NCBI GenBank assembly: GCA_944324835.1
Contig: CALUXV010000018.1
Coordinates: 1-33,796 of the forward strand
Reading direction: 5' to 3'
Origin: Candidatus Gastranaerophilales bacterium
GTDB lineage: Bacteria; Cyanobacteriota; Vampirovibrionia; Gastranaerophilales; Gastranaerophilaceae
DNA length: 33,796 bases
In this document: piece after piece, positions 28,180 to 33,796 of the stretch
Numbering within the stretch: position 1 is the first letter of the stretch
Layout of the letters: every line of letters starts with the position of its first letter
Notes under the pieces: generated by a model
Databases searched by the model: none
What the model saw: the letters and a program-made list of their open reading frames with translations, nothing else
Told to the model about the DNA's origin: nothing
Position numbers and translations under genes: made by a program

Positions 28180-29202
28180 ATGGCTGTTAAAGAAGAAGAA
28201 ACTACAACAGGTTCAGTTGATGAAAGAAATAGAGCGCTAAAACTTGCAATTGAAAAAATAGAAAAGGATTTTGGTAAAGGTGCAATAATGCGTCTTGGAG
28301 ATAAAACTACGGTTAATGTTGATGCAATCCCAACAGGTGCGCTGGCACTTGATGTAGCTTTAGGAATCGGTGGTATTCCGAGAGGACGTATCATAGAAAT
28401 CTATGGTCCTGAATCATCAGGGAAAACGACTCTTGCACAACACATCGTAGCTGAATGCCAAAAAAGAGGAGGTATTGCAGCATTCGTAGATGCGGAACAT
28501 GCTCTTGATCCTGAATATGCAAGAAATCTTGGCGTAAATATTGATGAACTTTTAATTTCTCAACCTGATACAGGAGAACAAGCTCTCGATATCACCGAAG
28601 AATTGGTTCGCTCAGGTGCTGTTGATGTTGTTGTAGTCGATTCTGTTGCAGCTCTTGTTCCAAAAGCAGAAATTGAAGGAACAATGGAAGACCAGCAAAT
28701 GGGGCTTCAAGCAAGATTAATGTCTAAGGCGCTGAGAAAATTAACCGGCGTTATAGGAAAAACCAATACTACCGTAATATTTATTAACCAATTAAGACAA
28801 AAAATCGGTGTTATGTATGGTAATCCGGAAACAACAACCGGCGGTAACGCACTTAAGTATTATGCATCTGTCAGAATGGAAATTAAACGTGTTGAAGGCT
28901 TAAAAGGCGACGGAATGGATGTAGGAAACCATGTAAGAGTAAGAGTTCTTAAAAATAAGGTTGCACCTCCGTTTAGGACTGCAGAGTTTGATATTATATT
29001 CGGTAAGGGAATTTGTAAGACCGGAAATATCCTTGATGTTGCAGTAAATCTTGATATAGTTAAAAAGGCCGGAGCCTGGTTTAGTTTTAATGATGAAAAA
29101 TTAGGTCAAGGCCGTGACAAAGCAAAAGAATACTTGAATGCTAATCCAGAATTACTTGCAGAAATTGAAAAATTAGTTAGAGAAAAACTTGCTGAACAAT
29201 AA
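28180..29202 (+). CDS. recA: Recombinase RecA
   Basis: RecA forms ATP-dependent filaments on single-stranded DNA for strand exchange and SOS signalling. The 340-residue length is typical. Walker A GPESSGKT (76-83), Walker [11 protein letters not shown], the L1 loop [23 protein letters not shown], and the L2 region [30 protein letters not shown] are complete. No intein. AAAGGGAAG precedes the ATG. It appears to be the second gene of an operon with the MerR-like protein, an unusual partner for recA; recX is not adjacent. RecO lies in the same window, 12 kb away. Confidence 0.99.
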
Positions 29203-29299
29203 GAAATGTAAAAAATATTCTTTTATTTAGCAAAAAAAATCTGTCATCTAACTTAGTTAAGTCGGATACATGTGTGTAAAGTGAAAGGATAGTGGGAAA

Positions 29300-29713
29300 A
29301 TGATACAAGCAATTAGTGGTTTCAGACCATACGTATCTGCAGTTCCGCGAGTTACTCAACAACAAAGAGTTAACCAAATTAAACTTGAACGCAATGAAGT
29401 AACTGATGATTTAAGAAACGGGAAAATTACTGACATGCAAGCAATGTCTGAAAAAGTTGCATTAAATTCTAAATTATCAGATGCTAAGGCTAAAGTTACT
29501 CCTTCTGTTTACATCAATAACACATCGAAAGTAGAAAAACCAACAAATCTTTTTACTTCTCCGATGAATGCTCAACCGGCGAATATCAAAGCCATGGATA
29601 GACAACAAAAAGGTAAGGAATTATCAAAAGCCGAAAAAGAACAAATTGTTGAGAATCAAATGAAACAGATGGCTATTAACAATCAAGTTTTACACGGATT
29701 GGCTGCTGTATAA
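29300..29713 (+). CDS. Small Gln/Lys-rich protein, function unknown
   Basis: A 137-residue polar protein starting MIQAISGFRPYVSAVPRVTQQQRVNQIKLERNE, then DDLRNGKITDMQAMSEKVALNSKLSDAKAKV, a Pro/Asn linker, and a charged C-terminal helix (AEKEQIVENQMKQMAINN). No Cys, no signal peptide, no transmembrane segment. The opening, Met-hydrophobic-x-x-Ile-x-Gly/Asn followed by a Gln-rich helix, resembles the minus-strand orphan at 23625. It has AAAGGA and GTGGGA before the ATG and a strong terminator after it, so I consider it a real gene. Function unknown. Confidence 0.7.
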   Translation: MIQAISGFRPYVSAVPRVTQQQRVNQIKLERNEVTDDLRNGKITDMQAMSEKVALNSKLSDAKAKVTPSVYINNTSKVEKPTNLFTSPMNAQPANIKAMDRQQKGKELSKAEKEQIVENQMKQMAINNQVLHGLAAV

Positions 29714-29740
29714 AAAACTTTATTAATATGTATTTCTTTA

Positions 29741-29771
29741 GGACTTGGGATTTTTCTCAAGTCCGTTTTTT
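29741..29771 (+). terminator. Terminator after the 29300 gene
   Basis: GGACTTGGGA (29741-29750) pairs with TCTCAAGTCC (29755-29764), with one G-T pair and a TTTT loop, followed by GTTTTTT. It overlaps the 3' end of convergent mutS by two bases (mutS stops at 29770). Confidence 0.92.
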
Positions 29772-32349
29772 AAGTATTAAACAAATTAAGCTGCGGCGGT
29801 ACAAGTTCCGGTTTATCCGCATATTTTTTATTAGTAGATAAATTTTTAGAAAAATCTTTTTGCATTTTAGTCATTAGTGATTTTGATTTATTAATAACAG
29901 AGCTTGGCAGTCCTGCCATCTGAGCGACATGGATACCATAACTTTTGCTTGCTCCGCCCGGTACAATCTTTCTTAAAAATTCTATTTTGCCATCTTCTTC
30001 CGTAATTGTTATTCTGTAATTTTTAATTTGAGGATATGTTTTGGTCATAACGTTTAATTCGTGATAATGCGTTGCAAATATGCATCTTGCATTTATTTTG
30101 GTTGCAATATATTCAGCAACAGCCCATGCAATTGCAACTCCATCATAAGTACTTGTTCCTCTGCCTATTTCGTCAATCAAAATAAAACTGTTTTCTGTTG
30201 CATTGTTCAGAATATACGCAGTTTCGACCATTTCTACCATAAATGTTGATTGTCCTAGAGTTAAATCATCACTGGCGCCGACACGAGTGAATATTTTATC
30301 CGATATTCCGATTCTTGCATAATCTGCAGGAACATACGAACCTATTTGGGCAAGAATTGCAATAAGTGCATTTTGACGCATATATGTTGATTTCCCAGCC
30401 ATATTTGGACCTGTAAGAATCATAAACCTTGTTGAATTATGTTCTACGGAATCTTGCAACTCTAAGTCATTAGACACATAAGTTCCAAGAGGCAGAATTT
30501 TTTCTAAAACAGGATGACGTCCGTTTTTTATTACAAATTCAGAAGTTTCATTTATCTCAGGTTTCACATAATTATTTTCTAACGCAGTTATTGCAAAAGA
30601 ATTCAATACATCCAGCTTTGCAATACATTCTGCAACTTTTCTTATGATGTCTACAAACTCTTTGGCATAGTTTTTGAAATCAGAATAAATTTTATATTCA
30701 AGTTCATTAATTTTTGTTTGAGCGGTCAGAACTTCATCTTCATGTTTTTTTAGTTCATCTGTGATAAATCGCTCTCCGCCGGTCAGGGTTTGTTTTCTAA
30801 CATAATTAGCCGGAACTTGGCTTAGGAAAGAATTTGTAACCTCAATATAGTATCCAAAGACCCTGTTATACCCAACTTTAAGATTTTTAATGTTAGTTTT
30901 TTCTCTTTCCTGTTGTTCAAAATTTTCTATCCAGGTTGTTCCGTTTGTAAGTAAATCTCTTAAATAATCAAGTCCTTCATCAACGCCAGATTTTATAACT
31001 CCGCCTTCTTTAATTATATTTGGAGCATTGTCATCAATTGTGCGTTTAATTATATTTGCGAAATCGGCTAAATCATCTAACCTATCTTCTATATGATTAA
31101 AAATATCAATATTGCAATCTTTTGTAAGTTTGTATAAGTCTGGCAGAGCAAATAAAGAATCCCTAAGACTCAAAAAATCTTTTGGGAGCGCCGAAGTTGT
31201 ACTCAGTCTAGTTGCCAGCCTTTGGATATCATAAATATCATGAAGTGTTTCTGTTATTTCAACTCGAATATTATCATTTTCGATTAATTTTTCTACAATT
31301 TCTTGCCTTGTTTCTATTTCAGAAAGTTTTTTAAGCGGTTGACAAATCCAGGATTTAAGGAGTCTTGTTCCCATATTCGTACTTGTTCTATCTATAGCCC
31401 AATACAAAGAACCATATTTATTTTTTTCACGTAATGTTTCAACCAGTTCAAGATTTTTTCTTGTACTTGAATCCATTAATACATATTGAGATAGTTCATA
31501 TTGTTCAATTGTATCAAGTTTCGGAAATGATGATTTTAAGTTTTCCCAAATATATGCCAGTAATGCAGCTGCAGCCCTAAAACCGAGTTTACAATTATCA
31601 TACCCCAAAGCATCCAAGGTTGATATATTGAGTGCATTTTTCAAATTATTTTTAGCAAAATCAGGAGTAAAAATTTTAGCAGGAACTTTAGAACAAGTAT
31701 AATTTGCTGTCATTTCTTCCGGTAAATTTAATTTTTCATCAGGAACAATCTGAAATGGTAAAGCTTTTTGAGCAATTGAAGGTCCTATTATTTCAGAAGG
31801 TTTTATTCTTGCTAGTTCAGATAATATTAAGTTTAAAGGGGCTTGAGTTACTTTAAACTCGCCAGTACTGATATCTGAATATGCAAAACCGTACATTCCT
31901 TTTTCTTCAAAAGTTGCGCAGATATAGTTATTGCTGCTTTGCTCTAAAAAATCATTTTCTATAATTGTTCCAGGAGTAACAACTCTAACCAGTCCCCTTT
32001 TTACAATTCCTTTGGCTTGTTTAGGGTCCTCAAGTTGTTCGCATATAGCAACTTTTATACCTTTTTCTATAAGTTTTCTAAGGTAATTTTCCATTGATTT
32101 GACAGGGATTCCAGCCAGAGGAACTTTCCCTAGAGCAGCTCCGGCATCACGTGCAGTAAGAGTGATTTCTAATTCCCGCGATAAAATCTCTGCATCTTCA
32201 AAGAATGTTTCATAAAAATCTCCCATTCTATATAACAGCAGAGTGTTAGGATTTTGCTGTTTTATCTCAAGATACTGGCGCATTCCGGGGGATGTTTCTT
32301 CCGGATTTACATCTATACTATTAATATGATTGATTTCCCCTTTTGTCAT
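29770..32349 (-). CDS. mutS: DNA mismatch repair protein MutS
   Basis: MutS recognises mispaired bases and starts repair with MutL. At 859 residues it is typical of full-length MutS1. The mismatch-contact motif is GDFYETFFEDA near residue 43-53, with Phe and Glu both present. The ATPase has Walker A GPNMAGKST (647-655), Walker B FILIDEIGRGTSTYDG and ATHYHEL. A C-terminal helix-loop region follows. MutL is not in the window. There is no ribosome-binding site before the ATG, and a TATAAT places the transcript start within one base of it. It ends two bases inside the terminator of the convergent gene. Confidence 0.98.
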   Translation of the reverse strand: MTKGEINHINSIDVNPEETSPGMRQYLEIKQQNPNTLLLYRMGDFYETFFEDAEILSRELEITLTARDAGAALGKVPLAGIPVKSMENYLRKLIEKGIKVAICEQLEDPKQAKGIVKRGLVRVVTPGTIIENDFLEQSSNNYICATFEEKGMYGFAYSDISTGEFKVTQAPLNLILSELARIKPSEIIGPSIAQKALPFQIVPDEKLNLPEEMTANYTCSKVPAKIFTPDFAKNNLKNALNISTLDALGYDNCKLGFRAAAALLAYIWENLKSSFPKLDTIEQYELSQYVLMDSSTRKNLELVETLREKNKYGSLYWAIDRTSTNMGTRLLKSWICQPLKKLSEIETRQEIVEKLIENDNIRVEITETLHDIYDIQRLATRLSTTSALPKDFLSLRDSLFALPDLYKLTKDCNIDIFNHIEDRLDDLADFANIIKRTIDDNAPNIIKEGGVIKSGVDEGLDYLRDLLTNGTTWIENFEQQEREKTNIKNLKVGYNRVFGYYIEVTNSFLSQVPANYVRKQTLTGGERFITDELKKHEDEVLTAQTKINELEYKIYSDFKNYAKEFVDIIRKVAECIAKLDVLNSFAITALENNYVKPEINETSEFVIKNGRHPVLEKILPLGTYVSNDLELQDSVEHNSTRFMILTGPNMAGKSTYMRQNALIAILAQIGSYVPADYARIGISDKIFTRVGASDDLTLGQSTFMVEMVETAYILNNATENSFILIDEIGRGTSTYDGVAIAWAVAEYIATKINARCIFATHYHELNVMTKTYPQIKNYRITITEEDGKIEFLRKIVPGGASKSYGIHVAQMAGLPSSVINKSKSLMTKMQKDFSKNLSTNKKYADKPELVPPQLNLFNT

Positions 32350-32362
32350 GTCTATAATTATA
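32330..32362. promoter_or_regulatory. Bidirectional promoter with palindromic -10 between mutS and the 32388 gene
   Basis: TATAATTATA (32353-32362) reads TATAAT on both strands. On plus, TTGATT (32330-32335) sits at the ideal 17-bp distance, giving a start near 32365 and a 23-base leader with GAAGGA. On minus it gives a start at about 32350, one base before the mutS ATG. The plus -35 box lies within the mutS coding region. Confidence 0.7.
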
Positions 32363-32387
32363 CAATAAGTATGTAGAGAAGGAAAAT

Positions 32388-32999
32388 ATGTTTCGATTTT
32401 TTAAAAATATTTTTAACGCAATTATTCTGGTGCTTGTATTTGTAGGTTTAAATAATTTGTATCAAGCACACGTTTTTGACAATTTAATAGAAAACTGTTC
32501 AAATTTTTTCAAAGAAAAATCTGCTCAAACTATTCAGAGAGTTGGTGATTTTTCACATATAAATGCGGAATTTAATGTGGATACTGCAGTAAATCTTTTT
32601 GGATATAAAGCCGTGCTTGCTGAACACAGAGCATCAGGACAAAGAATGATAATTCTTGATTCCGGTCACAAACAAATATTAACACGCGAAGATTTAAGAG
32701 GTGATGGCATTGAACAAAAACTCGGGGATTTGAGTAAAAAGTTTAAATACCAATCATCAAATGTAAGTGATATTCATATTACAAACAGAGGAAATATGTA
32801 TGCTTACGGCAGACAATTGCCTTATGTAAGATTTACCGCAAGTGTAACCAAACTTCCGATTAATAAAATATCCGGTATTATAGCTGTTTATGATGATAAT
32901 CCTAAAGAACAGCGTTTGTTGTTATCAGTGAATGAAAAAGACAGATATTCTCAGTTGATAACTAATGAGTTTTATAGAGCAGTTAGAGAGTCTAATTAA
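32388..32999 (+). CDS. Membrane-anchored protein of unknown function
   Basis: A 203-residue protein with one N-terminal membrane anchor (residues about 9-25, FNAIILVLVFVGL) and a soluble domain beyond. The domain mixes helices and strands (VNLFGYKAVLAEHRASGQRMIILDSG; MYAYGRQLPYVRFTASVTKL) with no known motif visible to me. The basic segment FRFFKN before the anchor implies the domain faces the periplasm. GAAGGAAAAT precedes the ATG. Its stop is 11 bases before the GatD-type gene, so the two form a transcription unit diverging from mutS. Its function is not clear from sequence. Confidence 0.75.
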   Translation: MFRFFKNIFNAIILVLVFVGLNNLYQAHVFDNLIENCSNFFKEKSAQTIQRVGDFSHINAEFNVDTAVNLFGYKAVLAEHRASGQRMIILDSGHKQILTREDLRGDGIEQKLGDLSKKFKYQSSNVSDIHITNRGNMYAYGRQLPYVRFTASVTKLPINKISGIIAVYDDNPKEQRLLLSVNEKDRYSQLITNEFYRAVRESN

Positions 33000-33010
33000 A
33001 GGTTTTGGGA

Positions 33011-33739
33011 ATGAAAAGACAATTACGATTAGCACATTTGTATCCTAAAATGTTAAATATATATGGAGATTTTGGTAACGTCTTAACAATACAAAAACGT
33101 TGCGAATGGCGTGACATAGATTTAATTATTGATCAAATTGAAATTGGTGATAGAATGTCTGAGCATGACATGTACTTTATTGGCGGCGGCCAGGATATTC
33201 AACAGGTAGAGGTAGCCAAAGAGTTACAAAAAAACAAAGCTTTTTTACAAAATGAACAAAATTTGAATGCGGTATTTTTGGCTATTTGCGGCGGATATCA
33301 ACTTTTGGGACATTATTATCAACCCAACAATGCTGATAGACTAGAGGGTATTGGATTATTAGATGCGTATACGGTTGCTGGGTCAAATAGGTTTATTGGA
33401 AATGTAACGGCAGAAATTGATTACCCTCTAAAGAAAAAGACCTTAGTTGGTTTTGAAAATCATAGCGGACTTACTTATTTAAAAGGAAAAACAAAACCTA
33501 TATCCCATATTATTGTCGGAAAAGGTAACAACGGTAAAGATAAAACTGAGGGTGCAAGGTATAAAAATGTATTTGGCACATATTTACATGGTTCATTTTT
33601 GCCTAAAAATCCGCATTTCGCTGATTATTTGATAGAATTGGCGTTGCAGAAGAAATACGGTGTAGAGATGGAACTGGAATCATTGGATGATTCATTGGAA
33701 TATTATGCACATGTTGCTGTTGTAGAAAAACCATATTAG
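33011..33739 (+). CDS. CobB/CobQ-type glutamine amidotransferase (GatD-like)
   Basis: A 242-residue class-I glutaminase of the GatD/CobQ type. The nucleophile is Cys 93 in LAICGGYQLLGHYY, His 193 in FGTYLHGSFLPKNP is the catalytic base, and FIGGGQDIQQ (57-66) is the usual preceding loop. GatD with MurT amidates the second-residue glutamate of peptidoglycan lipid II; the length and motifs fit GatD best. MurT is not in the window; downstream is unread. ATG 33011 follows AAAGG by 8 bases; an in-frame TTG at 33005 sits inside that spacing and is rejected. Whether it works with MurT here is an inference from family. Confidence 0.88.
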   Translation: MKRQLRLAHLYPKMLNIYGDFGNVLTIQKRCEWRDIDLIIDQIEIGDRMSEHDMYFIGGGQDIQQVEVAKELQKNKAFLQNEQNLNAVFLAICGGYQLLGHYYQPNNADRLEGIGLLDAYTVAGSNRFIGNVTAEIDYPLKKKTLVGFENHSGLTYLKGKTKPISHIIVGKGNNGKDKTEGARYKNVFGTYLHGSFLPKNPHFADYLIELALQKKYGVEMELESLDDSLEYYAHVAVVEKPY

Positions 33740-33796
33740 AGATATGTAGTACAGTTCTAGTTCAATACATTTTTAACACTTATTACGCCGGCTCCA

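Follow-up and report, generated by a model that had tools for sequence, protein, structure and literature searches.

Can a single short element start transcription of both mutS and the gene that runs away from it, and if so, does it couple the expression of the two? The locus that raises this question lies in the genome of Candidatus Gastranaerophilales bacterium (G000), on contig C18, which was analysed in its entirety (33,796 nucleotides) and is called the window here. A first-pass annotation had proposed that one palindromic -10 box between the two genes fires in both directions and that, with polymerase binding in only one direction at a time, mismatch repair expression is tied by competition to an envelope operon. 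The features concerned are as follows, in window coordinates.

32353..32362, both strands: palindromic decamer TATAATTATA, read from the sequence as two overlapping -10 boxes; the same in 7/7 genomes of genus g1
32353..32358, plus strand: -10 box TATAAT in the predicted promoter of the 203-aa ORF; its spacing to the mutS ATG is kept family-wide
32330..32335, plus strand: -35 box TTGATT, 17 nt from TATAAT, within mutS codons 5-7 (Glu Ile Asn)
32357..32362 (read 32362-32357), minus strand: -10 box TATAAT of the predicted mutS promoter; predicted mutS start at 32350 or 32349
32379..32383, plus strand: Shine-Dalgarno (SD)-like AAGGA of the 203-aa ORF, from the sequence
29770..32349, minus strand: mutS, 859 aa, predicted leaderless; NCBIfam MutS equivalog, over the cut-off
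32388..32999, plus strand: 203-aa ORF with an N-terminal hydrophobic helix, from the ORF list and the homologue alignment
33005..33739, plus strand: GatD-like glutamine amidotransferase (lipid II isoglutaminyl synthase subunit), directly after the 203-aa ORF in g1
32303..32369: block with one variable base (32351) among the seven genomes of g1, from the genus alignment
32395..32416, minus strand: perfect match to the UP-element consensus, upstream of the predicted mutS promoter and inside the 203-aa ORF coding sequence

The geometry is largely as the first-pass annotation had described it. TATAAT can be read on both strands of the decamer, and TTGATT with its 17-bp spacer was found where it had been placed. 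In our scan for promoter-like sites the plus promoter TTGATT/TATAAT matches the consensus at 10/12 positions, and its geometry predicts a transcript start at about 32365 and a leader of 23 nt for the 203-aa ORF. On the minus strand the mutS ATG occupies 32349-32347. If the minus hexamer ends at -7, +1 of mutS falls at 32350, one base ahead of the ATG, as had been claimed; a +1 on the A of the ATG would lie one base further on. The window contains no SD-like word ahead of mutS, also in line with the earlier claim, and no good -35 was found in it for the minus promoter. By geometry only, the predicted divergent starts are 15 bp apart in the window, and 10 bp apart in a second arrangement, in which the boxes face each other.

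We determined how widely the gene pair is conserved. A mutS gene was found in 371/383 family genomes and a homologue of the 203-aa ORF in 129/194 relatives. An alignment at the start of mutS covered 168 genomes, and the ORF is divergent and upstream of mutS in 137; these include G062, which was counted as adjacent because both genes are placed side by side there. Removing 18 rows from the order's other families and 16 rows (g3, g22, g27, g37, g38 and g40) with a mutS of about 780 aa and unsure starts, several of which have the same neighbour, left 134 family genomes with a long mutS, and in 122 of these the ORF homologue divergently adjoins mutS. The alignment comparison of -10 boxes and SD words used 132 genomes, selected with a slightly different filter. 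The gap between mutS and the ORF is at most 60 nt in 105 genomes from 23 genera (median 39), in a sampling of genomes that is uneven, with g25 and g8 over-represented. Genera whose MutS is shorter have the divergent pair too, as do a few genomes from other families, in which the gaps are longer. The genera with a shorter, diverged MutS (L156-L163, L167 and L169-L171, with frames of about 780 aa) have the same neighbour, short gaps and TATAAT-like boxes.

The -35 box of the plus promoter is spelled by mutS codons: codons 5-7, GAA ATC AAT, give TTGATT when read in reverse. TTGATT with a correctly spaced -10 was present in 110/122 genomes with the neighbour and in 0/12 without it; the plus promoter is lost in the remaining 12 of the 122. 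The Ile codon that gives the key G of the -35 is ATC in 105/112 genomes with the neighbour versus 0/7 without. Elsewhere in codons 1-110 of mutS, Ile is written ATC in 138/969 cases, and at the next Ile in the motif in 5/88. After neighbour loss the Glu-Ile-Asn peptide often persists and the Ile codon switches. The predicted plus promoter tracks the presence of the neighbour gene, in a comparison in which independent events are few, since adjacency changed only three times on the mutS tree, each time counted as a loss. Independent-pair tests on that tree yielded two to three pairs, too few to reach significance. Within g1, third positions are invariant at 15/16 of mutS codons 1-16 versus 54/234 of later codons. 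Gene starts are generally better conserved than gene bodies, though less so than that of mutS: between G000 and G004, third-position identity at the gene start was 15/15 for mutS and 11-14 of 15 for six other genes.

By score the plus promoter is unremarkable, as positions 29000-33796 contain 20 promoter-like sites compared with 21.6 in shuffled sequence. A 434-kb portion of G000 has the decamer TATAATTATA at 11 places, where about 8 are estimated from base composition, and the combination TTGATT-N16-18-TATAATTATA occurs there once. While the decamer alone is near chance, the conservation of its setting lifts the element above chance. The UP-like match at 32395-32416 falls in an invariant run of the g1 alignment. 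No other perfect match lies in the window, and 434 kb of G000 has eight in all, but this one is in coding sequence, was spotted after the fact and is only suggestive.

We next consider the box on the opposite strand. In g1, g25, g29, g30 and g35 the minus box (TANAAT) and the plus box share 2 nt. In g2, g11, g14 and others the two boxes face each other 3 nt apart (TATAATnnnATTATA); this form places the -10 about 12 nt ahead of the mutS start, leaving a predicted leader of about 6 nt. A pseudo-symmetric -10 that can be read on both strands, as in the window, was examined over 17 genera in 89 loci with a plus box and a gap of at most 45 nt, by keeping the plus box fixed and shuffling the bases after it. 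A minus -10 was found at positions 8 or 13 in 14/17 genera, compared with 2.4 on average in 500 shuffles, none of which gave more than 8. As these two positions had been picked after inspection, we added a broader test of positions 8-15, which gave 16/17 genera against a shuffle mean of 4.3 (maximum 11). No good minus box was found at positions 8 and 13 in the 12 genomes of g8. In several genera TTTCAA, which reads as a candidate -35 TTGAAA on the minus strand, stands between the SD and the ATG of the ORF, and similar words persist close to the start of the ORF in wide arrangements. These comparisons support the earlier proposal of one -10 region common to mutS and the ORF well beyond the genus. 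Conservation of its symmetry, which the first-pass annotation had asked for in close relatives, holds in all seven g1 genomes and not in general: an exact palindrome near the mutS start is present in 8/168 genomes, seven of g1 and one of g39. The exact decamer is mainly genus-specific, and the feature with the wider conservation is a plus -10 paired with an opposite -10, either overlapping it by 2 nt or facing it across 3 nt.

The predicted absence of a leader on mutS fits its lack of an SD. An SD of at least four bases precedes mutS in 8/122 genomes with the neighbour versus 8/12 without it. Both the distance of 7 nt between -10 box and start codon in the window, inside the range of 5-8 nt for leaderless genes, and the absence of an SD, in the window and in 114/122 genomes having the neighbour, are consistent with a leaderless mutS. 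A similar signature was seen at other genes. Of the 86 no-SD genes among 349 gene calls in G000, 24 show a -10 hexamer whose end lies exactly 6 nt ahead of the start codon, and the same peak was found in 10/41 no-SD genes of G013 and 6/56 of G127, a genome from another family. It was absent from SD genes and internal ATGs in the three genomes. Counting -10 boxes at 6-8 nt gave 37, 14 and 7 no-SD genes in G000, G013 and G127, compared with shuffle means of 6.6, 3.5 and 2.7; the G127 peak is weak, at least one of 300 shuffles also reaching 7. The loci concerned are L192-L211 and the window (G000), L219-L228 (G013) and L229-L238 (G127). Gene calls were crude, being the longest ORFs with SD and ATG deciding the start; as a control, 50 kb of E. 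coli with 43 gene calls was used. Since no-SD genes peak sharply for a -10 at 6 nt in three genomes, a leaderless mutS would fit a wider class, and the peak points to widespread leaderless genes in the Gastranaerophilales. Our literature search found no paper combining 'leaderless' and 'Melainabacteria'. An internal ATT start of mutS that uses AAAGGGGA (codons 3-5) was considered and rejected: other genera do not conserve this word, and most relatives keep the ATG-led N-terminus from its first residue onward.

Another locus has a compact divergent pair of the same kind. Here an ispG-like gene without an SD (L195:6793-7863, minus strand) and a phosphoesterase-like gene (L195:7894-8640), both named by eye, lie 30 nt apart. 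A TATAAT overlaps the ispG start codon and a TACAAT is on the opposite strand, so that the two opposite -10 boxes overlap within L195:7860-7900. The compact pair recurs in the six genus genomes that had a match (L268-L273), and a phosphoesterase match was found near ispG at 17/21 loci examined in all. The mutS case is therefore probably one example of a class.

Sequence searches of Pfam, NCBIfam and PDB returned no convincing relative of the 203-aa ORF, and its AlphaFold model is poor (pLDDT 56). Its homologues occur family-wide (alignment A2) and have an N-terminal hydrophobic helix, many of them starting with MGCL. The top NCBIfam model for the gene behind it is GatD, at 211 bits and under its cut-off of 400. 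Among the genera checked, gatD follows the ORF in g1, g29 and g35 only, and at nine loci of other genera different genes lie downstream. The envelope operon of the earlier proposal can be recognised in these three genera and not in the others checked, and its first gene belongs to no known family; a conserved envelope operon as the partner of mutS was rejected on these grounds. Considering that the downstream genes differ between genera, a specific functional link is doubtful.

We favour, with a probability of roughly 0.72, a compact bidirectional promoter core of the sigma-70 type, whose mutS arm is leaderless. A polymerase heading rightward would use TTGATT in mutS codons 5-7 and, across the 17-nt spacer, TATAAT, and would produce a leadered, SD-bearing mRNA of the ORF. 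One heading leftward would use the overlapping minus -10, start at the mutS ATG or one base before it and produce a leaderless mutS mRNA. The two complexes could not be bound simultaneously. The conserved promoter element is real, and the sequence comparisons make it very likely that it works in both directions. The poor -35 of the minus box, its varying position between genera and the near-chance frequency of the decamer in the genome would also suit a locus with a genuine promoter on the plus strand alone, at which the minus -10 arises as a side effect of AT-rich, T/A-symmetric sequence and transcription of mutS begins further upstream, inside the ORF, with an SD-less leader. We consider this unlikely. 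The minus -10 far exceeds its shuffle mean across genera, and mutS lacks an SD in most genomes with the neighbour, yet has one in most of those without. In addition, no-SD genes of G000 carry a -10 right at their start, and at the threshold of our scan there was no minus-strand promoter-like site in 32388-33270 from which such an mRNA could begin. Very unlikely, in our view, is that the symmetric sequence serves a dimeric regulator as its operator and does not represent two promoters. The dyad does extend to GYTATAATnnnATTATARC or near it in g11, g14 and g18. Still, ten genomes contained 52 sites of TATAATNNNATTATA versus 36 of its reversed control, which is not a clear enrichment and argues against a regulon operator, and spacing and arm identity vary between genera where -10 identity is kept.

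If the promoter core is bidirectional, competition between its arms could also be put to use, more transcription of the ORF (and here of gatD) lowering that of mutS and so linking mismatch repair to it. Steric exclusion is a likely consequence of the overlapping geometry, in which the boxes preclude simultaneous binding, and the arrangement is old and conserved. According to the accessible part of one study (PMC12825309), however, none of five E. coli bidirectional promoters showed substantial competition at basal activity, and competition became clear only after one of the -35 boxes had been improved. The mutS locus has no known activator site, and what lies behind the ORF varies from genus to genus. 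Regulation by competition would therefore go beyond what published work favours, and we regard it as doubtful. More unlikely than this is a full switch, in which across the family a leaderless mutS has its only promoter as one half of a two-way element, the orientation of polymerase balances mismatch repair against a membrane protein, and leaderless translation adds control by ribosome state, so that growth state could influence the mutation rate. In our view a regulatory switch is less likely than compaction in which the coupling is weak at most.

Bidirectional promoters have reportedly been recognised since a founding paper of the Grainger group in 2021. As described in the available portions of work on E. 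coli, Salmonella and other prokaryotes (PMC12825309, PMC10268837), they have a pseudo-symmetric -10 for both strands with separate flanking elements, often lie between divergent genes and accommodate one polymerase at a time, as two cannot bind together (PMC12825309); the element in the window resembles them in these respects. It differs in that the mutS arm is predicted to be leaderless, with its -10 beside the start codon, and that the opposite -35 lies in coding sequence. Its predicted start spacing of 15 bp, from sequence geometry, also departs from the commonest spacings of 18, 10 or 23 bp, around which small variations are allowed (PMC12825309, accessible part). The mutS arm in turn resembles leaderless genes as portrayed in the accessible text of PMC3160421 and, for Deinococcus-Thermus, PMC12340547: a TATAAT-like box with its first T about 12-13 nt before the start, and no SD. 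Unlike the known cases, it belongs to the Gastranaerophilales, and a leadered gene running divergently would use the same box. According to the available part of PMC3160421, SDs and leaderless genes are both unused in many Cyanobacteria genomes, and a term search of the accessible text of PMC12340547 gave no mention of 'divergent' or 'bidirectional'. Bidirectional promoters and leaderless genes, which are known but have been studied apart, would here be joined in one small family-wide element, for which the mutS coding sequence appears to be held to carry a -35. A codon choice that is gained or lost together with the neighbour gene offers a comparative test of a predicted promoter, and one that needs no RNA data.
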